From contig CALDHM010000076.1 of NCBI GenBank assembly GCA_937941455.1, forward strand, positions 1 to 42,797: 42,797 bases of DNA. Direction: 5' to 3'. Within the stretch, counting starts at the first letter, position 1. Every line of letters begins with the position of its first letter. Position numbers and translations under genes: made by a program. A model generated the notes under the pieces. That model was not told the origin of the DNA. It was given only the letters and a program-made list of their open reading frames with translations, and searched no databases. Source of the stretch: an uncultured Pirellulaceae bacterium (GTDB lineage Bacteria > Planctomycetota > Planctomycetia > Pirellulales > Pirellulaceae). Of the stretch, positions 5,027-39,736 are shown piece by piece.

Positions 5027-5110
5027 GCGGATGTGGCGGAATTGGCAGACGCGCTAGATTCAGGTTCTAGTGGCCGCAAGGTCGTGGAGGTTCGACTCCT
5101 CTCATCCGCA
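5027..5110 (+). tRNA. tRNA-Leu (anticodon CAG)
   Basis: An 84-base cloverleaf. Acceptor arms GCGGATG and CATCCGC pair fully, with discriminator A at 5110. The anticodon stem CTAGA/TCTAG encloses loop TTCAGGT, giving anticodon CAG. A long variable arm typical of class II leucine tRNAs follows, and the T arm contains GGTTCGACTCC. The CCA end is not encoded; CTG follows. Confidence 0.97.
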
Positions 5111-15737: not shown

Positions 15738-18700
15738 ATGGTGAGCGATTCCTTTTCCCGAAATTGCTGGACGATTTTTGGCTGCTTTCTCTTCGTGTTC
15801 AGCGTTCCCGAAATGTTGGTGGCGCAGCGCCGAGTCGGCGAGGCCATTCCAATCACTTGGCAAGACGATGCTGAGTTGACGACTTTGCACTTTATCAACC
15901 CGGAAACCATTTGGGTGGTCGGTGAGCATGGCACGATGCTCCATTCGCGGGACGGCGGACAGTCGTGGCGACAGGCCTATACGACGCTGTCGCTAAGTTC
16001 GGAACAAGGCAAAATCACTCCCGAAATGCAACGCTTGCTCGACAGCGTCCGCAAGAATACGGGGTCTGACGGGATTTCGTCGCGGCAGGCGATACGCCAG
16101 TGCTTGGATGTTCGCTTGGAGTCGGTCGCTTTTGCCGATCCGCAAACAGGGATCGCCGTCGGCGGCTTTTTTTCACCGGGGACCGATATTAGCCGCGGCC
16201 TGGTTTTGACAACTCGTGACGGCGGGGAGACATGGGAGCCGAATTCTGGCACCGTTCTGCCGAAACTCAATCAAGTCCAACTCGAAAAGGGTCCTTTGGG
16301 CTGGGCCGTCGGCCATCAACCCCTGATGCTCGGAACGGGTATCCTTACAACCACCGACGGCGGGACGAATTGGTATTCCGACGCGCAAGCCATCGCGGGT
16401 TCCTGGCGGCGTGCGGTGCGGACTCCAGGCGGTTGGTTGCTCCTTGACCTTCAGGGCAATTTGTATGTTGCCTCGGGCAAACGCTTGGAGCCTGCCGCGC
16501 TCCTCAACGCGTTACCGAGTCGTATTCATGACATGGTGCTTGCCGACGGCAGACTGGGTTGGGCCGTTGGAGACCAAGGGACTTTTTTAGTCACCCATGA
16601 CGGTGGCCACAGTTGGCGTCCCGCGTTAGGCGATTTAGATCAAGTTCGCCTCCGCTCGTTTGATTTGCGGACGATTTGCTGGCAGGAGAATCGTTTGCTG
16701 GTGGCGGGCAATCCGGGAACCAAGATCTTCGTACTGGACCTGGAAACGCACCAGTTGTCAGAAACTGCGATTCCCAATCGGGCCAAATTGAATGCCATCG
16801 CGATGGCCGATTCTGAACGTGGCTGTGCGATCGGATCCCAAGGGACGATCCTGATCACTCGTGACGGAGGTCAGCGCTGGCAGGTCGTCCGTGGGGGGGC
16901 ATCGTCCGTCGCTGTCTTGGCCATCCACTTCGACGAGCAAGACTTACCTCTGGAGGCATTGGCCAAAACGTGCCTGGCTGATGGCTATCGTGCGGCGGTC
17001 GCGCAGATTCTCTGGCAGCGCAACAGCTCGCCGGATCGTCTCGTTCAGGCGGTTTCTCGCTTGGGCGTTCATGAAGTCCGCTTGTTGGATGTCCCGGCGC
17101 AACGGGACAAGGCGCTCGCCGAGAGCCAGCGGATGGTTTTACTCGGACGTCTGGTCGCGATTCTGCGCGATCTTGAACCGCGACTCATCGTAACGCACAC
17201 CTCGTCTGTCAAATGTCCTGATGGAACGACGCTCGATGTCGTGCGGCTCCTCAGTGACGCCATGACGATGGCTGCAGATCCGCAAGCATTTCCCGAGCAA
17301 CTCGCGGCCACAGGGCTCCGCCCTTGGCAAGCGGAGCGGCTGGCGGTGCTGAGCGAATTTGGTGACGGCGCGTGGCGAATCGACCGCAGCAGTTTATTGA
17401 ACCGAACTGGCAAGCGACTGGATGACGAAATCGCCATAGCTCGTGGCCTTGTGGGAGGTCCGTTATTTTCCAGCGGAGTCATTACCTATCGCGTCAAAAC
17501 CCTGGGTCAGCGCGGCAACGAATTTCATCATGACATTTGGCAAGGGCTTGCCGCGGGCGGCTCATCGATTCCGCGGCGGCCAGAAGCTCGCTTGGGCTCG
17601 CGCAATCTCCGCGACATGGGACACTCGCTGGACAAGATGCCGGCCATCAATCGCCTGCTTCATCTACCGCTGGTCACGCTGGGGGACAAAGTCGTCTGGG
17701 AGCAAAATCTGCAATCCTGGCTCATGGAGGTCGATCGTGAGACGGCAGGAATTTGGCTCTTGCATCTCGCCGAATCGTACTATCACAGGGGAGACCTGTC
17801 GGCCGCCGCGATGACTTTGGATTATTTTCTGAGTTCGTATCCCGATCACCCGCTCGGCCCTTTGGCTATGGCCTCACTACTGAGCTATGTTGGCAGCCGC
17901 GAGTCGCAAATCGCGGCTTATTCCGCAGCTCAATTGCTACAAACGCTGCGATCGATCATGAGGGACGCGAATGTCAGTAAGGCAGGCAGTGAAACATCTG
18001 TTGACGGTACTGTACAGATTTCGAGATCCGTTTGGTCCCCCCCCTCGATGAATGAAGTGACAACCTCAACCCCATCGTCTGCCGACACAAGTCGCGACGT
18101 CAAAACGGAGATCGACACCGCGGCATTCGCAGACGTCGAAGGTGCACTCTGGAGGAGTATCGCTCAACAATTCTTGCGGATTCGCCAATGTGATCCGGAA
18201 TTGGCCAGCCACCCCGTGATGCGGGCCTTGGAGGCCCATGTCGTCGAACACGCAGAGTCCCCTGACCAGGCGGTGAATCTGTACAAACAGCTCGCGTTGC
18301 ATCCGCTGGCCAGTCCGCTCCTTAAGGAGTGGGCCAATCAGCAAGTGATGTTGTTTTCCCCCATGTCCGCTCGCATCCCTCAGGTCCTGTGCCCGCTTGT
18401 TGCAGACCGCCCGCACCTCGATGGAGATTTGAACGATAGGACATGGCAGCAAGTGCAAGCGGCGATCGCGCGATGGCCCACGCCCCACCCTTACTCACTG
18501 CCCTTGCCGCAAGACGCCCAGGACCAAGTCTGGTTAGCTTATGACGATGAATTTCTCTTCCTGGCGATCACATGCCGCAAAATCGAGGGCGTCGTCTACA
18601 TGGAACCCGTTCCAGGCAGAACCCGTAATCCGATTCTCGACATGTTCGATCGTGTCGAAATTAGCTTCGATGTCGATCGCGATCATCGATGGCCATTCCG

Positions 18701-18998
18701 TTTGACGATCGATTCGCGAGGTTGGGCTGCGGACCATGTCGGCTCGGCCGCGAGTTGGAATCCAATTTGGTACATTGCCGCGCGGCAGTCGGCGACCGAG
18801 TGGCGGATCGAAGCGGCAATTCCCTGGAACGAACTCGGCGGGCGGCCGAAGCCAGGGACGCACTGGGGGCTCGGCTTGGCTCGTCGCCCACCGCGCAGCG
18901 GAGATAGTCTGTGGCCCACCCCTGCCCCACCCCTACAAGGTTTGCTCGAATTCCCCGCGCTGGCACCCCACTCCTATCGCCCGCTGGTATTCCAGTAA
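15738..18998 (+). CDS. Secreted multidomain protein: YCF48-like propeller, degenerate PIG-L-like region, CBM9-like C-terminus
   Basis: A 1086-residue exported protein. The ATG at 15738 (AGGGGTG upstream) gives a signal peptide (CWTIFGCFLFVFSVPEMLVA). Residues about 45-385 carry repeated blades with GWAVG...TTDGGTNW and SRDGGQSW-type motifs, as in YCF48/sortilin-like beta-propellers. From about 392 the sequence reads AVLAIHFDEQDLPLEALAKTC, and later RLIVTHTSSVKCPDGTTLD near 482, then DPQAFPEQLAATGLRPWQAERL. The order and spacing resemble PIG-L/LmbE deacetylases, but the AHPDD and HxxH zinc ligands are not present. A helical region follows, and from about 885 (ADRPHLDGDLNDRTWQQV) to the end lies a CBM9-like beta-sandwich with WRIEAAIPWNELG. 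The gene stands alone. I infer a surface or periplasmic binding protein; no activity can be assigned. Confidence 0.8.
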   Translation: MVSDSFSRNCWTIFGCFLFVFSVPEMLVAQRRVGEAIPITWQDDAELTTLHFINPETIWVVGEHGTMLHSRDGGQSWRQAYTTLSLSSEQGKITPEMQRLLDSVRKNTGSDGISSRQAIRQCLDVRLESVAFADPQTGIAVGGFFSPGTDISRGLVLTTRDGGETWEPNSGTVLPKLNQVQLEKGPLGWAVGHQPLMLGTGILTTTDGGTNWYSDAQAIAGSWRRAVRTPGGWLLLDLQGNLYVASGKRLEPAALLNALPSRIHDMVLADGRLGWAVGDQGTFLVTHDGGHSWRPALGDLDQVRLRSFDLRTICWQENRLLVAGNPGTKIFVLDLETHQLSETAIPNRAKLNAIAMADSERGCAIGSQGTILITRDGGQRWQVVRGGASSVAVLAIHFDEQDLPLEALAKTCLADGYRAAVAQILWQRNSSPDRLVQAVSRLGVHEVRLLDVPAQRDKALAESQRMVLLGRLVAILRDLEPRLIVTHTSSVKCPDGTTLDVVRLLSDAMTMAADPQAFPEQLAATGLRPWQAERLAVLSEFGDGAWRIDRSSLLNRTGKRLDDEIAIARGLVGGPLFSSGVITYRVKTLGQRGNEFHHDIWQGLAAGGSSIPRRPEARLGSRNLRDMGHSLDKMPAINRLLHLPLVTLGDKVVWEQNLQSWLMEVDRETAGIWLLHLAESYYHRGDLSAAAMTLDYFLSSYPDHPLGPLAMASLLSYVGSRESQIAAYSAAQLLQTLRSIMRDANVSKAGSETSVDGTVQISRSVWSPPSMNEVTTSTPSSADTSRDVKTEIDTAAFADVEGALWRSIAQQFLRIRQCDPELASHPVMRALEAHVVEHAESPDQAVNLYKQLALHPLASPLLKEWANQQVMLFSPMSARIPQVLCPLVADRPHLDGDLNDRTWQQVQAAIARWPTPHPYSLPLPQDAQDQVWLAYDDEFLFLAITCRKIEGVVYMEPVPGRTRNPILDMFDRVEISFDVDRDHRWPFRLTIDSRGWAADHVGSAASWNPIWYIAARQSATEWRIEAAIPWNELGGRPKPGTHWGLGLARRPPRSGDSLWPTPAPPLQGLLEFPALAPHSYRPLVFQ

Positions 18999-19399: not shown

Positions 19400-19996
19400 G
19401 TGATTCGCTTCGCTGCAGTATTTTTCGCCGGTTCCTTAGCATGCCTGGCCTCGGCTACGCAGGCATTCGCCCAGGGTGATGGTGGAATCGTCGCCGTCCT
19501 GGACGTTGCTAAAGTCTTCAAGGAAAATCTGGAATTCTCCAACCAGATGGATGCGATTCGCCAAGAAGCCGATCGGTTGCGCACCCAACTGCAGTCCGCT
19601 CAAGAGGACCTGCGGCGCCAAGCGTCCGAAATCAGTCAACTCCCGGTCGGCAGTCCCGAGCGAAAGCAGGCCGAGGCTCAATTTGCTCAGCGGCGAACCG
19701 CTTTTGAAACTCAAGCCCGGCAAGACGAGAATGATCTGCTCGTCAAAGAGGCCAAAGCCTACTACACGACTTATCAAAAACTCCAAAACGTTGTCGCTCA
19801 GATCGCTCAACAAAACAACATTTCCTTGGTCTTGCGTTTCGATAGCGCCGAAATCAATCCGACCAATCCCAACGAAGTAGTCATGGGCGTCAACCGCGCT
19901 ATCGTTTATCATTACAAACTCGACCTGACCTCGATGGTGATCCAAGCGATGGGCCCCACCGTCGCCTCGGCACCCCAAGGCAATCCCAAACGTTGA
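19400..19996 (+). CDS. OmpH/Skp-like periplasmic chaperone
   Basis: A 198-residue exported protein beginning at GTG 19400, with GGAGG eight bases upstream. The signal peptide ends near ATQAFAQ (about residue 25). The mature part starts GIVAVLDVAKVFKENLEF, the beta strand that opens Skp/OmpH proteins. A long charged coiled coil follows (about 45-120, with EADRLRTQLQSAQEDLRRQ), and a closing helix-strand part contains ISLVLRFDSAEINPTNP. In Gram-negative bacteria Skp carries unfolded outer-membrane proteins across the periplasm. The usual neighbours (bamA, lpxD) are absent here. A strong terminator at 20121-20154 ends the unit. Confidence 0.85.
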   Translation: MIRFAAVFFAGSLACLASATQAFAQGDGGIVAVLDVAKVFKENLEFSNQMDAIRQEADRLRTQLQSAQEDLRRQASEISQLPVGSPERKQAEAQFAQRRTAFETQARQDENDLLVKEAKAYYTTYQKLQNVVAQIAQQNNISLVLRFDSAEINPTNPNEVVMGVNRAIVYHYKLDLTSMVIQAMGPTVASAPQGNPKR

Positions 19997-20154: not shown

Positions 20155-20304
20155 CAGCATCCAACTGGCCCTGTTCTGGAGAACGTCGCCGTCGGCACCG
20201 GCCTAAACCGCGTTCAAGAACCTGGCGGCGAATTGGAAAATTGATTCCGTTTTGCTAGGCTTTTAGTCGAAGCGATCGCGATTATCCAAGTGTTCGAGCA
20301 AAAC

Positions 20305-21549
20305 ATGAACATCCTGTTGTTTGAAGACGCCCAAATCGATTCACTCTATCCATTGACGATCAGTCGGCCAGGCTTTGCACTCACCGTCGGGGCGTTTCGC
20401 TTGTACGATGTACTCTGCCGTTGGGACGCTCACATTACCTGTTACGTGCGACCATTTTTGCGGGAAATCGTCAAGTTGGACTACTCGCAGGCCAAACCCG
20501 CGCTCGAGAATTATCCTTGGACCTTGCTCGTCAATGCGCGCTTGGTTCCATCCATGGAAAATTTGCGCCGATTGGAACATCTGGCGAGCACGGGCGAACC
20601 CGTAGTCGTGCGGCAGGGAAATCGAATTCTTGCTGGCTTGGTCCCCACGCCGACACTCGGCTCGCTCACTCTCTCGGGAACAGTCGCCGAATTTTCCAAC
20701 TCCCTCGATCTCTGTTTAGCGAATCTGCGGACGAACAACGTGCCGCTGCATGTTTTGGAATTTCCGCATGACTTGATTAAATTTCATATGCAGCTGATCA
20801 ATGAAGGTTTGCAGGAAAAGATTCGGCAAGGTTCCTATCAAGAAATTTCCGAAGGCGTTTTCGCGGCCGAAGGGGCAAGAATCAGCGATTTTGTCGTCAC
20901 GAATTCGCGGAATGGACCGATCGTGATCGAACGCAATACCGTGATTGGCCCGTTCTGCTTCTTACGCGGCCCGGTCTTTGTCGGAGCCAATTCGCGAGTC
21001 AATGAACACGCCTCGTTAAAGGATGGGGTCTACATTGGCCATACTGCGAAGATTGGTGGGGAAGTCGAAGGTTCCGTGATCGATTGCTACACCAATAAAC
21101 AGCATCACGGTTTTTTGGGGCACAGTTATCTGGGCAGTTGGATCAACCTGGGCGCCGGCACCTGCAACTCGGACCTGAAAAACACGTACGGCGAAGTCAA
21201 GATGGAATACCTTAACCAGAAGATTGCTACTGGAATGCAATTCGTCGGCTGCTTTATCGGCGACTATGCCAAAACCGCCATCAACACGAGCATCTTTACG
21301 GGTAAAACAATCGGCGTCTGCAGCATGGTGTACGGGTTCGTTACCACGAATGTCCCCAGTTTCGTCAACTATGCACGTTCCTTCGGCCAAGTCACGGAAT
21401 CACCTCCAGCCGTGATGGAGGCAACCCAACAGCGCATGTTCAGCCGTCGCAACGTTATCCAACGCCCTGCCGATATCCGATTACTTGCCGACATGTACGA
21501 TTTGACACGGCGCGAGCGGCAAATGTCGGAAGAGCCGCTGAGTCTGTAG
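20305..21549 (+). CDS. GlmU-like sugar nucleotidyltransferase/acetyltransferase (TIGR03991 type)
   Basis: A 414-residue protein. The start MNILLFEDAQIDSLYPLTISRPGFALTVG is the typical opening of the alternative bacterial GlmU family, seen mainly in Bacteroidetes and planctomycetes. In that family the N-terminal half stands for the uridylyltransferase part but lacks the normal GxGTRM loop. The C-terminal half from about residue 190 is a left-handed beta helix (hexapeptide repeats such as VIERNTVIGPFCFL and VFVGANSRVNEHASL), the acetyltransferase fold. The predicted product is UDP-GlcNAc for peptidoglycan or lipopolysaccharide. The ATG at 20305 is preferred over a GTG 15 bases earlier. The gene stands alone; no canonical glmU motif appears elsewhere in the window. 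Confidence 0.85.
   Translation: MNILLFEDAQIDSLYPLTISRPGFALTVGAFRLYDVLCRWDAHITCYVRPFLREIVKLDYSQAKPALENYPWTLLVNARLVPSMENLRRLEHLASTGEPVVVRQGNRILAGLVPTPTLGSLTLSGTVAEFSNSLDLCLANLRTNNVPLHVLEFPHDLIKFHMQLINEGLQEKIRQGSYQEISEGVFAAEGARISDFVVTNSRNGPIVIERNTVIGPFCFLRGPVFVGANSRVNEHASLKDGVYIGHTAKIGGEVEGSVIDCYTNKQHHGFLGHSYLGSWINLGAGTCNSDLKNTYGEVKMEYLNQKIATGMQFVGCFIGDYAKTAINTSIFTGKTIGVCSMVYGFVTTNVPSFVNYARSFGQVTESPPAVMEATQQRMFSRRNVIQRPADIRLLADMYDLTRRERQMSEEPLSL

Positions 21550-28101: not shown

Positions 28102-28104
<3 letters not shown>
27358..28104 (+). CDS. Exported coiled-coil protein of unknown function
   Basis: A 248-residue protein, or 212 if it starts at the ATG at 27466. The later start gives an ideal signal peptide (LIPSTNFPLSLLLMAWLSFPAMAQ); the earlier one has a better ribosome site (GAAGG eight bases upstream) but a 36-residue basic extension. 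The mature part is nearly all helical. RFQRLEARLDALERVVF is followed by long heptad stretches (about 115-235) such as AERRLQDAEAQLRESRQLF and LQAENNLRIAEDQLNFLQNL. The pattern resembles the helical hairpins of TolC-type or membrane-fusion proteins, but no beta-barrel or lipoyl part is present. Its TAG stop overlaps the 3-prime end of a convergent tRNA gene. Function unknown. Confidence 0.75.
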
Positions 28105-28175
<71 letters not shown>

Positions 28176-30647: not shown

Positions 30648-30729
30648 TAGCCGAGACAGGAATCGAACCTGCACACCTTGCGGTACTAGATCCTAAATCT
30701 AGCGCGTCTGCCAATTCCGCCACTCGGCC
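30648..30729 (-). tRNA. tRNA-Leu (anticodon TAG)
   Basis: An 82-base class II cloverleaf on the minus strand. Acceptor GGCCGAG pairs with CTCGGCT (first pair G-U), discriminator A is at 30648. The anticodon stem CTAGA/TCTAG holds loop TTTAGGA, giving TAG. The long variable arm TACCGCAAGGTGT is present and the T loop is GGTTCGATTCC. CCA is not encoded. A 7-bp hairpin CGCGGTT/AACCGCG lies just upstream (30736-30754). Confidence 0.96.
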
Positions 30730-34454: not shown

Positions 34455-35261
34455 AGCACCTAAATAAACTGCCGGCAAGGGCCAAGGATTCAACTGACCA
34501 ACATCAGATTCCCCAAACAAATGAATTGCAAGGATACACCGGAGTGCTCGAAGCTGGAGGCGGTCAATGAGTTGCTCGAAACGGTTAGGATCGAAGTGAC
34601 GTTTAGGGATGCTCACGCCATAGCTCCAGTTGCCAACAATATCGAAAACTTTGACCCGCAGTCGCGGATGAATAGCGGTCGAGGGGCTGAATTTAAGAGT
34701 GTCGAAAAGGAGTCAAAAAGGACAAGACTGATCCGCATGCAGGCGATGATCGCGCAGTCGTTGGAGCAGCGGCGCGAGTCGGTCGAAATACTTCAGCCAC
34801 GTGACATCCTTGCTCTGAATTGCTTGACGTTTCTTCCTCGCCATGGCCGATTCTTGCCATCTTGACAGATGGCCATGAAAGAAATCATGACCGCGCACAC
34901 GGCATGCCAAATCCAAACCAACAAAAAGTTTTCAAAAGCAATTATCGCGCCCAGCAGTATTGGACCTGTCCCCGTTTCTTCGTCCAACCATGAGCACAAC
35001 AAGCGACCTCGAATACCTGCTCCCCGACCGCTGGCTCTCCGACAACCCCACCCAAGGCTGGACCATCGCCGACGCAAGAAAAAACGAACGAATATAAAAA
35101 CCAGAGGATGCACTGCATCGTGCGCTGACCTTGATCCGGGTCGGACGGACCAATCAGTCGAAACCTGCACCGTACACGGCGGCATCATTCAATGTTAACA
35201 TGAGCGCTGATGAAACATCGTGCAGGGGGTAATTTTGGTCGATTCATTGGGGTTGATGGCC
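34455..35261. other. Spacer with transposase remnant and small open frames
   Basis: About 800 bases with one transposase remnant (separate entry) and a 35-codon plus-strand frame at 34990-35097. That frame opens MSTTSDLEYLLPDRWLSDNP and looks like a cut-off N-terminus. Nothing else is convincing. It probably received several insertions and deletions. Confidence 0.45.
34713..34844 (-). pseudogene. 5-prime remnant of an IS4-type transposase gene
   Basis: On the minus strand, the ATG at 34844 opens MARKKRQAIQSKDVTWLKYF and continues DRLAPLLQRLRDHRLHADQS before a stop at 34713. The pattern LKYFxxLxPLLxRLxxxGxxRDxxxNRxLxFDQ is the opening of a group of IS4-like transposases common in planctomycetes. 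Here the middle is shortened (a deletion after RLRD) and the frame ends at the start of the transposase core. Downstream sequence continues in the same direction as scrambled protein-like text. A remnant, not a functional gene. Confidence 0.45.
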
Positions 35262-36509
35262 ATGTCGAGTCAATCGTCCGCGGGATGGAAGGATGCCTTT
35301 GCATCCTGGAACAGGTTGCTCGTCTTGGTAGGCCTAATCCTTAGCGGATGCGATGAGGCAAAAAAAATTGCGGAGCCGTCCAATCCGTTGGTGACTTTCT
35401 GTCTGGCTGAGGCGATTTCGACGGTCGATTACGATGAGTATACGGGTTGGACTCGCCCCTCCGAAACGGTCGAGGTCCGCAGTCGTATCAACGGATTCTT
35501 GCAGTCGGTCGAATTTCAGGATGGCGACGATGTTCAAGAGGGGCAGTTGTTGTATGTCATCGAGCCCGATGAATACCATGCCGTTCATCAGCAGTCATTG
35601 GCTCGCATTACGGTCGCCGAATCTCGACTATCGACCAGTCGAGCCAATCTGCAGCGGCGGGAGGCCTTGATAGGCGGCAATGCCATTTCGAAAGAGGAAT
35701 ACGAAGAGTCGGTTGCTGCCGTTCGGGAGGCAGAAGCCCAGGTGATTGCCGCCAAGGCCGATGCGGATCGGACGGCCCTGAATTTGAAATATACGCAAAT
35801 TTTCGCTCCGATCAGCGGTCGAATCGATCGCACCCTCGTCACGCCAGGCAACCTGGTGTCGGGAGGCCTGGGGAGCGGCACCCTCCTGACGACCATCGTC
35901 AAAAAGTCGCCGATGCATGTCTTTTTCGATGTCGATGAAGCGGCTCTGTTGCGATATCGCCGAAAACGAGCGGCCTCTGAATCATCGCCTCAGACGATCC
36001 CCGTTCGCGATTTGGATTTGCCGTGTGAAATTCAATTGGCGGATGAGACAGGATTCCCGCACCGAGGGCGAGTCGATTTCGTTGAGTCCATGATCACGCA
36101 AACCAGTGGAACCATCACCCTCCGTGCAAGTTGCCCCAACGAAAACCAGGAACTACCGGCCGGGGCATTCGTGCGGGTCCGGATTCCGGTGAGCCAGCCC
36201 TACACGGCGATTTCGATTCCCGAAGCGGCGATTGGTACCGACCAAACCGTCAAGTACGCGTTCGTGATCGACGAGCAGAACATCGCTCGGCGGCGAGGCT
36301 TGAAGTTGGGCCGGCAAATCGGCAGCCAACGTCTGATTCTGGAAGGTTTGGCTCCCGGCGAGCGGGTGGTTCTAGGGGGGCTGTTGCGCGTTCGGCCTGA
36401 CAAACCGGTCACCGCACAGCCGGCTCCAGGCATTGCCCCCAACGGTGCAGCTACTCCCAAAGTTTCCAATTCTTCCTCGTCCTCCCCACCAGAAGAACGA
36501 GGTGAGTAA
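35262..36509 (+). CDS. RND efflux periplasmic adaptor (membrane fusion) lipoprotein
   Basis: A 415-residue HlyD/AcrA-type adaptor. The signal ends in LLVLVGLILSGC, a lipobox, so C30 should be lipidated; D31 at the next position would keep it in the inner membrane under the E. coli rule. The beta-barrel/lipoyl part (GFLQSVEFQDGDDVQEGQLLYVIEPDEY) and an alpha hairpin (about 105-175, with AISKEEYEESVAAVREAEAQV) are readable. The second lipoyl half (LNLKYTQIFAPISGRIDRTL) and a membrane-proximal domain follow. The C-terminus is Pro/Ala/Ser-rich and disordered. I prefer the ATG at 35262; ATG 35256 and GTG 35220 are in frame. It overlaps the pump gene by one base (TAATG), a tightly coupled operon. 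Confidence 0.93.
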   Translation: MSSQSSAGWKDAFASWNRLLVLVGLILSGCDEAKKIAEPSNPLVTFCLAEAISTVDYDEYTGWTRPSETVEVRSRINGFLQSVEFQDGDDVQEGQLLYVIEPDEYHAVHQQSLARITVAESRLSTSRANLQRREALIGGNAISKEEYEESVAAVREAEAQVIAAKADADRTALNLKYTQIFAPISGRIDRTLVTPGNLVSGGLGSGTLLTTIVKKSPMHVFFDVDEAALLRYRRKRAASESSPQTIPVRDLDLPCEIQLADETGFPHRGRVDFVESMITQTSGTITLRASCPNENQELPAGAFVRVRIPVSQPYTAISIPEAAIGTDQTVKYAFVIDEQNIARRRGLKLGRQIGSQRLILEGLAPGERVVLGGLLRVRPDKPVTAQPAPGIAPNGAATPKVSNSSSSSPPEERGE

Positions 36510-39500
36510 TGGTTCGATTTTTCATCGATCGACCGATCTTTTCGGCGGTCATTTCGATCGTGATTGCCCTCGGCGGTTTGATCTTTGTCACCCAACTGCC
36601 GATCGCTCAGTATCCCGAAATCACGCCTCCGTCGATTGCCGTCACCTGCCAGTATCCTGGGGCCGATGCCCAAGTGGTTGCTCAAACCATCGCAACGGCG
36701 ATCGAGCAACAAGTCATCGGCGTCGAGAACATGTTGTACATGTCCAGCCAATCGACCAACGATGGAGGTTACAGCCTGAATGTCACGTTCGCGGTGGGTA
36801 CCGATTTGGACATGGCACAGGTGCTCGTCCAAAACCGCGTCAACTTGGCATTGCCCTCCCTACCCGCTGAGGTCAAGCAAACCGGGGTAAGTGTCAAGAA
36901 GAAAAGTCCCAGTATTTTGCTGGTTGTGAATTTGATTTCACCGCGGGGGACTTACGATCAACTGTACCTCAGTAACTTTGCCAGCCTGGTGTTGCGCGAC
37001 GAGTTGGTCAAGCTGGAAGGAGTCGGAGACGTAGCTCAGCTTGGTCAAATGAATTACAGCATGAGAGTTTGGCTGGATCCAGACCGGATGGCGGCGCGAG
37101 GATTGTCGGCAGTTGACGTGGTGCAATCGCTGCGCGAGCAAAACGTGCAGGTTGCTGCCGGCTCGCTGGGACGCGAACCGACCTTGCCCGGCAACGCCTT
37201 TGAGTATTCGTTGACCACGCTAGGGCGGTTGACCGAACCCGAACAGTTCGGCGCGATTGTCATTCGTACCGACGACCGCGGGCGGAGCATTTATTTGCGC
37301 GACATCGTCAGCGAAACACGTGAGGTTGGTGGTCGAGAACTTGGCGGCATCCAGTTGGGGGCACAGCGACAAGACACGGCCTGCCTCTTGGACGGAAAGC
37401 CCTCCATTGGGCTCGGCGTTTACCAACAGCCGGGTTCCAATGCGTTAGCCACGGCGGAACGGGTAAAGAACAAAGTCGCCGAGTTGAGCGAGCGGTTTCC
37501 ACCAGATTTAGAATACGCAATCGTTTACGACACAACACCCTTCATTGACGAATCGGTGCACGAGGTGTTCAAGGCACTCCGCGATGCGATCATTTTGGTG
37601 GCCTTGGTCGTGCTGTTGTTTTTGCAATCTTGGCGAGCCACCTTGATTCCGCTGATAGCGATCCCCGTCGCCTTACTCGGGACGTTTGCCGTGATGGCCG
37701 GATTGGGGATGAGTCTGAACAACCTGTCCTTGTTCGGATTGGTCCTCGCCATTGGAATCGTCGTGGATGATGCGATTGTGGTCGTCGAGGCGATTGAGCA
37801 TAAGATCGAACACGGCCTGGGCCCGCGCGAGGCCGCACATCAAGCGATGAATGAAGTGGCCGGACCGATTATCGCGATATCTCTGGTGTTAATGTGCGTT
37901 TTCATTCCGTGCCTGTTTATCACGGGAATTACCGGCCAGTTTTTCTTCCAATTCGCCATTACCATAACGACAGCGACTTTTTTTTCCGCGATCAATTCGC
38001 TAACGCTCAGCCCGGCATTGTCGGCAGTGTTGTTGCAACCCAAACACGAGCAGCGAGATCCGCTGTCGTGGTTGATCAAGATCACCTTGGGCTGGTTCTT
38101 TGCCGGTTTTAATTGGACCTTCGAAAAAATTGCCGGGGGCTATGCAGGCTCCGTGCGGGTTTTGTTGCGACTCAGTTTGGTGGTGCTGTTGGTTTATGGC
38201 GGCCTGTTGTGGGCCACCTACGGCAGTATGCGTTCGGTGCCGACCGGCTTCATTCCGACGCAGGACAAGGGTTATTTGTTAATCGATTTCCGGTTGCCAG
38301 AATCGGCTTCTCTCGAGCGCACGCGCGAAGTCGTGCAGCGGGCCGTGAAATTACTGCAACCGGACGCCGATCGTGTGGATGGACATGCAGGTGCGGCACC
38401 AACATCACCAACGGCAGGTATCGCTCACACTGTTAGCGTCATCGGGCAATCGTTCGTGCGAAACGCCATCGGCTCGAATAACGGCGCGATGTTTCTGATC
38501 TTAGATGAATTCGAACATCGTCACGATCCCAATCTCAGTGCCGAGGCGGTCGCCGGTCGGTTGCGCAAACTGCTATACCAAGCCCTGCCCGAAGCCCAGG
38601 TGTCGATATTCGGCGCACCGGCGGTGGATGGTTTGGGGTCGGCTGGCGGTTTCAAGGTCATGATTCGAGATGTGGGCGATCTGGGGTATGACGAATTGGA
38701 TTTAGCCGCGCGCGAGGTCGCGTTGGCGGCGAGTCAGGCGCCGGGAATCGCCGGGGCCATCAGCAGTTTTAGCGCGGCCGCTCCACGGATGTTCGTCGAT
38801 ATCGATCGCGAGAAATGTAAAAAGATGGGCGTCCCACTGAACGATGTGTTCTTGGCATTGCAGCTGTTTCTGGGGGGGTACTACACCAACGACTTCAATC
38901 AGTTCGATCGAACCTGGCAAGTCAACTTGCAAGCTGATCCCGCGTTTCGCGTGACTCCTGACGACATCGGAAAATTGAAAGTCCGCAACCAGCGAGGTGA
39001 GATGGTCCCATTGGCGTCATTTGCTAAAGTGCGCGAGACTGTAGGGCCTGCGGTGATTACGCGTTACGACGCACGCCCCGCCGCTGCATTGAATGGTGCC
39101 AGTTTCCCCGGCGTCAGCTCCGGCGAAGTAATCAGTACGGTCGAACAAATTTGTAACGAGACGTTACCCCAAGGTATGGATTCGCGTTGGACCGAGTTGA
39201 CCTTGTTGCAAATCCAGGCCGGTAACACCGCGTTGATTGTGTTTGGCGTGGCGGTGATTTTAGTATTCTTGGTGTTGGCGGCGCAGTATGAAAGCTGGGG
39301 GTTGCCGCTGGCCGTCATTCTGGTGGTCCCCATGTGTTTGTTGGCCTCAGCCCTGGGGATCATTCTGGCGCGGATGGATCTGAACATCTTCGTGCAAATT
39401 GGTTTTGTCGTGCTCGTGGGCTTGGCAAGTAAAAACGCGATCTTAATCGTCGAATTTGCCAAGGAGGAAGTGATCAAGGGGACGGCATTAGTCGACGCCA

Positions 39501-39736
39501 CAGTCAAGGCTTGTCGCCTGCGACTTCGCCCGATCATCATGACCTCGCTGGCGTTTATCTTCGGCGTGGTACCGCTGGCACTGGCCAGCGGCGCGGGAGC
39601 CGAAATGCGAAAAACGTTGGGAATCGCCGTTTTCAGTGGCATGTTGGGCGTGACGCTGTTCGGCATCTTTTTGACCCCCGTGTTTTTCTACGCGGTCATG
39701 TGGTGCACTGGTAGGACTGCGAAAGGCCAAGGTTAA
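36509..39736 (+). CDS. RND-family multidrug efflux transporter (HAE1 type)
   Basis: A 1075-residue AcrB-like inner-membrane pump. It starts MVRFFIDRPIFSAVISIVIALGGL, typical of HAE1 transporters, and has the expected twelve helices in two repeats. The proton-relay aspartates D420 and D421 lie in IGIVVDDAIVVVEAIEH, equal to AcrB D407/D408. The second repeat contains FVQIGFVVLVGLASKNAILIVEFA. Two large periplasmic loops (about 35-340 and 590-890) carry substrates. The start codon overlaps the adaptor stop codon. No TolC-type outer-membrane channel gene is in the window; the OprB-like porin further on is not a known partner. Substrates cannot be read from sequence. Confidence 0.96.
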   Translation: MVRFFIDRPIFSAVISIVIALGGLIFVTQLPIAQYPEITPPSIAVTCQYPGADAQVVAQTIATAIEQQVIGVENMLYMSSQSTNDGGYSLNVTFAVGTDLDMAQVLVQNRVNLALPSLPAEVKQTGVSVKKKSPSILLVVNLISPRGTYDQLYLSNFASLVLRDELVKLEGVGDVAQLGQMNYSMRVWLDPDRMAARGLSAVDVVQSLREQNVQVAAGSLGREPTLPGNAFEYSLTTLGRLTEPEQFGAIVIRTDDRGRSIYLRDIVSETREVGGRELGGIQLGAQRQDTACLLDGKPSIGLGVYQQPGSNALATAERVKNKVAELSERFPPDLEYAIVYDTTPFIDESVHEVFKALRDAIILVALVVLLFLQSWRATLIPLIAIPVALLGTFAVMAGLGMSLNNLSLFGLVLAIGIVVDDAIVVVEAIEHKIEHGLGPREAAHQAMNEVAGPIIAISLVLMCVFIPCLFITGITGQFFFQFAITITTATFFSAINSLTLSPALSAVLLQPKHEQRDPLSWLIKITLGWFFAGFNWTFEKIAGGYAGSVRVLLRLSLVVLLVYGGLLWATYGSMRSVPTGFIPTQDKGYLLIDFRLPESASLERTREVVQRAVKLLQPDADRVDGHAGAAPTSPTAGIAHTVSVIGQSFVRNAIGSNNGAMFLILDEFEHRHDPNLSAEAVAGRLRKLLYQALPEAQVSIFGAPAVDGLGSAGGFKVMIRDVGDLGYDELDLAAREVALAASQAPGIAGAISSFSAAAPRMFVDIDREKCKKMGVPLNDVFLALQLFLGGYYTNDFNQFDRTWQVNLQADPAFRVTPDDIGKLKVRNQRGEMVPLASFAKVRETVGPAVITRYDARPAAALNGASFPGVSSGEVISTVEQICNETLPQGMDSRWTELTLLQIQAGNTALIVFGVAVILVFLVLAAQYESWGLPLAVILVVPMCLLASALGIILARMDLNIFVQIGFVVLVGLASKNAILIVEFAKEEVIKGTALVDATVKACRLRLRPIIMTSLAFIFGVVPLALASGAGAEMRKTLGIAVFSGMLGVTLFGIFLTPVFFYAVMWCTGRTAKGQG

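Follow-up and report, generated by a model that had tools for sequence, protein, structure and literature searches.

In this work, we have used profile searches, structure prediction and comparative genomics to analyse a gene of an uncultured Pirellulaceae bacterium, carried on a stretch of 42,797 nucleotides (contig CALDHM010000076.1 of assembly GCA_937941455.1; hereafter the window). The gene codes for a protein of 1086 amino acids (aa), in which a YCF48-type beta-propeller, a PIG-L/LmbE-fold domain, a TPR-like helical region and a CBM9-fold domain follow one another behind a signal-peptide-like start. Our analyses indicate that the PIG-L-like domain has kept its fold and lost its zinc ligands throughout an old, mostly single-copy family, and the reading that we favour, with a probability of about 0.55, is that these proteins are non-catalytic exported scaffolds or assembly factors. 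The cell envelope of planctomycetes is unusual, and for many of the proteins that they export no role has been assigned. About seven in ten of the genomes sampled from the class carry the gene, mostly in one copy, and its product is built from recognition folds, which makes it a good candidate for a basic role there. The protein is also a clear example of an enzyme fold that has outlived its metal site, and relatives that keep the site allow a direct comparison.

The middle region of the protein is predicted to adopt the PIG-L/LmbE fold. Since both the PIG-L and the CBM9 calls were weak on the single sequence, a family was built. The Pfam profile PF02585 reached 15.8-17.4 bits in the window protein or its parts (gathering cut-off 28.2; E-value 0.02), and it matched 14 of 67 members at E-values up to 1 (best 0.00027) and one of 24 at up to 0.1. 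With the family profile, LnmX (E 9e-9) and MshB (E 0.0024) are detected at the sequence level. An AlphaFold model of aa 383-665, made from 67 sequences (predicted local distance difference test, pLDDT, 84.5; predicted template modelling score, pTM, 0.79), has LnmX as its best Foldseek match in the PDB (E 1.6e-8). In VIA, the top 22 entries for this model, with Z from 16.4 to 12.3 over 166-202 residues, belong to the PIG-L superfamily (1uan and 5cgz, which are among them, being taken as members), and they are headed by 2ixd (Z 16.4, 2.5 Å over 177 residues), 5bmo (16.1) and 6ull (16.0); the next entry, with another fold, scores 8.7. The prediction thus agrees with an earlier sequence-only reading of this DNA, which had proposed a degenerate PIG-L-like region here.

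That reading had also reported the zinc ligands as missing, and a search for intact ones in the family led to the same result. We take the ligands, from PIG-L structures, to be the His and the Asp of the HPDD motif (motif 1) and the last His of motif 2. When the family profile is compared with that of 15 long PIG-L proteins (E 4.5e-26, 241 columns), D399, D402 and T498 of the window protein fall at these places; a comparison with a profile of short PIG-L proteins (E 7.8e-6) gives the same register for motif 1 and puts G496 in motif 2. The columns were read in an alignment of 109 rows, consisting of the best 80 relatives of a contig scan, the window protein and 28 open reading frames (ORFs) of related genomes; relatives under the blast cut-off lie outside this set. 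The scan itself, run with a profile of six relatives, matched at least 593 stretches and yielded 280 confirmed relatives, of which the best 80 were kept (L004, which is the window itself, was left out). The strict triad is found in none of the 109 rows, and in none of the 97 that remain without the 12 near-copies (95% or more identical). In motif 1, His occurs at 399 in 0/109 rows and Asp at 402 in 37/109; in motif 2, His occurs at 496 in one row, at 498 in three and at 499 in 28. Taking His 397 as the metal histidine did not hold up: it is present in 22 of the 109 rows, but both profile comparisons place it two residues before the ligand. Remnants such as VHA and DHPD are seen in some rows, Gemmatales records included, as a decayed active site would be expected to leave behind. 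The absence of the triad throughout the aligned relatives points to an old loss, a property of the family and not decay in one genome.

The nearest relatives that we found are long planctomycete PIG-L proteins, encoded by ORFs of about 750-1070 aa and bearing the motifs AHPDDED and GHGHH. HPDD is present in 15 of the 17 that were read, and the same 15 also have the His pairs of motif 2. Both the long (A7) and the short (A6) PIG-L sets were chosen by an HPDD-type motif, so that retention of motif 1 in them holds by construction; the fair counts are the 15 of 17 long proteins just given and 30 of the 31 short-set loci, L003 being without a match to the pattern. A loose pattern for motif 2 was found in 15/15 long and 14/26 short rows, a count that misses rows because a fixed stretch was scanned; the invariant columns of the short set include H10, D12, D13, D110 and H111. 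A tree was built of 61 domains, namely 26 of the 67 metal-less ones (A4), the 15 motif-bearing long ones and 20 of the 26 short PIG-L ones. In it, the metal-less rows form one clade (support 100/99), metal-less and long domains are separated together from the short ones (100/100), and the long group has weak support (89/72). These data would be best fitted by a single early loss of the metal site in the class, followed by long retention of the metal-less domain.

The two long PIG-L proteins without HPDD, L153:3314-6115 (-) and L158:2800-5052 (-), come from outside the class and carry RPGDED instead of AHPDDED, which suggests that the metal-site motif has probably been lost elsewhere too. They were considered as forerunners of the metal-less domain: in a tree with both added they fall outside its clade (100/100), but the base of this tree is poorly resolved and the long group is no longer recovered as one clade.

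The four-module arrangement is an old, class-wide planctomycete family. When the whole protein was the query, 54 of 60 related genomes showed matches, some of them partial. In a class-wide sample queried with the PIG-L-like region, 111 of 148 genomes matched, a figure that falls to about 107 when the likely false matches are removed, namely that of G159 (= L166, a PIG-L protein with intact motifs) and three weak, partial ones (E 2e-5, 8e-4 and 6e-9) in the family-level group f21. Nearly all matching genomes have a single copy, as the genome of the window does; where G035, G042, G168 and G176 show further matches, these are weak and partial. Of 148 genomes sampled across the phylum, 37 matched: 15 inside the class, full-length, and 22 outside it, partial, 19 of the latter in ORFs of 720-1072 aa. 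The best 80 relatives are labelled nearly all as Planctomycetota (Pirellulales, Gemmataceae, Gimesia, Schlesneria and others), the exceptions being Nealsonbacteria (L037) and plain 'bacterium' (L104). The member labelled Candidatus Nealsonbacteria is 51% identical to the query and probably lies on a misbinned planctomycete contig. Within the class, group f21 seems to be without the family, its four matches being weak, partial or, in G159, an intact PIG-L protein.

The other modules were identified in a similar way. The propeller ahead of the middle region, also proposed from the sequence, matches PSII_BNR of Pfam (PF14870) with 80.9 bits against a cut-off of 27 (E 1.3e-22); phmmer matches YCF48 chains, and YCF48 ranks first in Foldseek for the full-length model. 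The NCBIfam equivalog for Ycf48, PRK13684, gives 79 bits, below its cut-off of 326, and the same scan contains weak PIG-L-type and TPR-type matches. VIA places GH74 propellers (Z up to 26.8) slightly above YCF48 (24.5); its rows for the full-length model are almost all propellers, with GH74 enzymes on top, so that the absence of other folds there is uninformative. We regard the propeller as YCF48-type, the assignment that its sequence favours over GH74. Behind the PIG-L-like domain, TPR_6 is matched in 11 of 24 members at E-values up to 0.1, and in the window protein at 0.0022, below its cut-off. At the C-terminus, where a CBM9-like end had been suspected, CBM9_1 (PF06452) is matched in 16 of the 24 members at E-values up to 0.1; the profile match to the xylanase CBM9 of PDB 1i82 (E 8e-6) spans most of the domain, and Foldseek matches the full-length model to CkCBM9, 7nwo (E 8.6e-7; template modelling score TMt 0.66). 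The order propeller, PIG-L part, CBM9 given in the sequence-only reading was therefore right, and the TPR-like helical region at aa 621-875 had been overlooked in it.

The full-length AlphaFold model (pLDDT 80.4, pTM 0.83) has low confidence at, among others, aa 1-34, 85-93, 750-789 and 1054-1074, and, to judge from its pTM, the packing of the modules is probably a defined one. Mean pairwise identity, from 1500 sampled pairs, is 0.437 in the propeller, 0.45 in the CBM9 part, 0.36 in the PIG-L-like core and 0.29 in the helical region. A hydrophobic 12-mer lies within the 60 aa preceding the propeller in 89 of the 109 family rows, and the protein is probably exported, as judged from hydropathy alone.

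What would such a protein do? We propose that the PIG-L-like domain has ceased to be a zinc deacetylase, and that the protein serves as a binding scaffold or assembly factor outside the cytoplasm. The propeller and the TPR-like region would grip protein partners, similarly to YCF48 and its subunit in photosystem assembly, and the PIG-L-like and CBM9-like parts could offer surfaces for recognition next to a highly conserved loop that ends in two arginines (of the 109 rows, 106 keep R613 and 108 keep R614). YCF48 provides the precedent, being a propeller of this type that works as an assembly factor. Several points weigh against this proposal. The scaffold role is inferred, and the gene neighbourhood gives it no backing: the 24 other ORFs of the window have homologues near the family gene in at most four of 80 loci, and the commonest neighbour elsewhere, an RNase-HII-like ORF (13 of 80 loci, 12 of which are among the 63 with more than 1.2 kb downstream), suggests no envelope process. 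The register of motif 2 shifts by two residues between the two profile comparisons, and with loosened positions one row of the 109, L084, does show H, D and H. The window protein itself has no Pfam CBM9 match. Finally, Asp 402, an acidic residue at 406 (100/109) and Arg 434 (96/109) would make binding of a ligand or a metal possible.

A more specific version of this proposal is, in our view, less probable. In it, a long secreted deacetylase domain was joined early with a YCF48-type propeller, helical repeats and a CBM9 fold, its metal site was lost once, and the product was kept across the class because it chaperones or scaffolds, without catalysis, a planctomycete-specific envelope structure that it touches through the Arg-Arg loop.

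The sequence-only reading had suggested a sensor or scaffold for sugars or glycoconjugates, and the scaffold is the half that has fared better, although it too is inferred. That the proteins are sensors, in which the metal-less PIG-L pocket and the CBM9 end bind glycans and report through the propeller, appears unlikely to us. PIG-L and CBM9 are both sugar-linked fold families, the retention of R434 would suit such a pocket, and the sugar-cleaving GH74 propellers do lead the VIA ranking; against this, the propeller is YCF48-type by sequence, and among the 80 loci neither a conserved sugar-pathway neighbour nor a signalling partner was found. Moreover, the two tryptophans that sandwich glucose in the glucose-binding CBM9, placed on the 1i82 alignment, occur together in none of the 102 rows that extend to the C-terminus (loop 1 Trp 0/102, loop 2 Trp 1/102). 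A third Trp next to the lost pair is kept in 89/109 rows. The absence of the stacking pair makes canonical glucose binding by the C-terminal domain unlikely, though its fold is that of CBM9.

Could the middle domain still be an enzyme, which catalyses a different reaction with another metal site or with none? Conserved residues give this idea some ground: besides those at 402, 406, 434 and 614, R477 is kept in 108 of the 109 rows, and some members retain an HPD stretch in motif 2. Also kept in the family are P481 (109 rows), D514 (98) and W530 (102). Nevertheless, none of the three ligand places is conserved family-wide, and the columns of R434, R477 and P481 are also kept in intact PIG-L proteins (those of the two arginines are invariant in them), for which reason they may be structural. 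We consider a remaining enzyme slightly less probable than a glycan sensor. This structural account does not extend to E406 and the Arg-Arg loop.

It is less probable still that these are planctomycete membrane-coat-like proteins that act on membranes, a group recognised by a propeller ahead of helical repeats. The window protein, as modelled, does combine an N-terminal propeller with later helical repeats, and the published screen required only this order (PMC2799638). Gemmata 4796 of that screen, with 1,039 aa and modelled pieces of 326 and 188 residues (PMC2799638), would fit in size, and members of the present family may be among the hits. However, a PIG-L fold intervenes here and a CBM9 fold comes after, neither of which is mentioned in the passages of that paper that were consulted, and the screen gives 5-11 such proteins per positive planctomycete (PMC2799638), as against mostly one here. 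In Planctopirus limnophila, deleting one coat-like protein left macromolecule uptake unaffected (PMC5394234).

That the gene is simply a decaying deacetylase gene of one genome is very improbable: the window copy does sit on the longest branch of the 61-domain tree (1.81), but the same loss is seen in all 109 aligned rows, most relatives have open frames of about 1000-1250 aa, and conserved columns are spread throughout the protein. Single-genome decay and a chance artefact were both rejected on this family-wide pattern.

The positions of the modules and motifs are given in the table below. The frame can be extended upstream to 15507, but it is the start at 15738 that the hydrophobic stretch of aa 10-23 comes right after.

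Table. Positions in the window of the gene, its modules and motifs, and the tRNA genes
Feature	Position	Strand	Evidence and remarks
Whole gene	15738..18998	+	ATG at 15738, stop ends 18998; 1086 aa plus stop codon
Signal-peptide-like start, about aa 1-30	15738..15827	+	hydrophobic aa 10-23, mean hydropathy 2.15 over 14 aa; pLDDT <50 at aa 1-34
YCF48/HCF136-type beta-propeller, aa 40-385	15855..16892	+	PF14870 E 1.3e-22; PDB 5ojr TMt up to 0.75, best E 4.8e-14
Predicted PIG-L/LmbE-fold domain without zinc ligands, aa 391-590	16908..17507	+	model of aa 383-665; Z 16.4 to 2ixd; hhalign E 4.5e-26 to long PIG-L proteins
Former metal motif 1 (place of HPDD), aa 393-406	16914..16955	+	His place D399, Asp-ligand place D402; register from two profile comparisons
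Former metal motif 2, aa 486-498	17193..17231	+	last-His place T498 (long-PIG-L register) or G496 (short-PIG-L register)
Conserved loop with terminal Arg-Arg (R613, R614), aa 601-614	17538..17579	+	conservation; middling model confidence, block pLDDT 64-79
TPR-like helical region, aa 621-875	17598..18362	+	TPR_6 below cut-off, E 0.0022; helices in model; low-confidence insert aa 750-789
CBM9-fold C-terminal domain, aa 880-1086	18375..18995	+	PF06452 in 16/24 members; 1i82 E 8e-6; 7nwo E 8.6e-7, TMt 0.66
tRNA gene	5027-5110	+	Rfam
tRNA gene	28102-28175	-	Rfam
tRNA gene	30648-30729	-	Rfam

In the window, the gene is followed by an OmpH-like gene (19400-19996, +) and by a gene for an alternative-type GlmU (20290-21549, +; TIGR03991 E 3.3e-104). 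Further on, at 35220-39736 (+), a gene for an HlyD-type membrane-fusion protein is directly followed by one for an AcrB-type efflux pump. The RNase-HII-like ORFs mentioned above code for 324-383 aa with the motif GTDEAGYGPNLGPL or close to it, lie on the strand of the family gene and downstream of it, and were seen in loci L034, L048, L074, L076, L077, L081, L089, L091, L093, L094, L095, L098 and L107; in two that were scanned, the NCBIfam RNase HII scores are far under the cut-off.

Compared with known systems, the middle domain shares its fold, with Z of 12-16, with the PIG-L/LmbE deacetylases, which include LnmX (5bmo), BC1534 (2ixd), BshB, MshB and the chitobiose deacetylases, but here the strict zinc triad is gone from every aligned row and the domain sits between a propeller and helices in a protein of 1086 aa. 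The long planctomycete PIG-L proteins, which group with the family in the tree and match it over 241 columns, also have in common with it the block AADP..FPEQ..GL.PWQ; they differ in that they mostly keep HPDD and in that the three that were scanned have neither propeller nor CBM9 in Pfam. With YCF48/HCF136, the photosystem II assembly factor, the protein shares the propeller fold, whereas its score lies under the equivalog cut-off and three more modules are attached. The C-terminal domain agrees in fold and profile with CBM9, as in the xylanase module 1i82 and CkCBM9 7nwo, and keeps neither of the stacking tryptophans. The coat-like proteins of the gp4978 group, likened here by description only, share an N-terminal propeller and later helical repeats (PMC2799638), and differ from the present family in the PIG-L and CBM9 folds and in the copy number. 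In searches of open-licence literature we found no account of this module combination or of a metal-less PIG-L family; each of the modules by itself is known.

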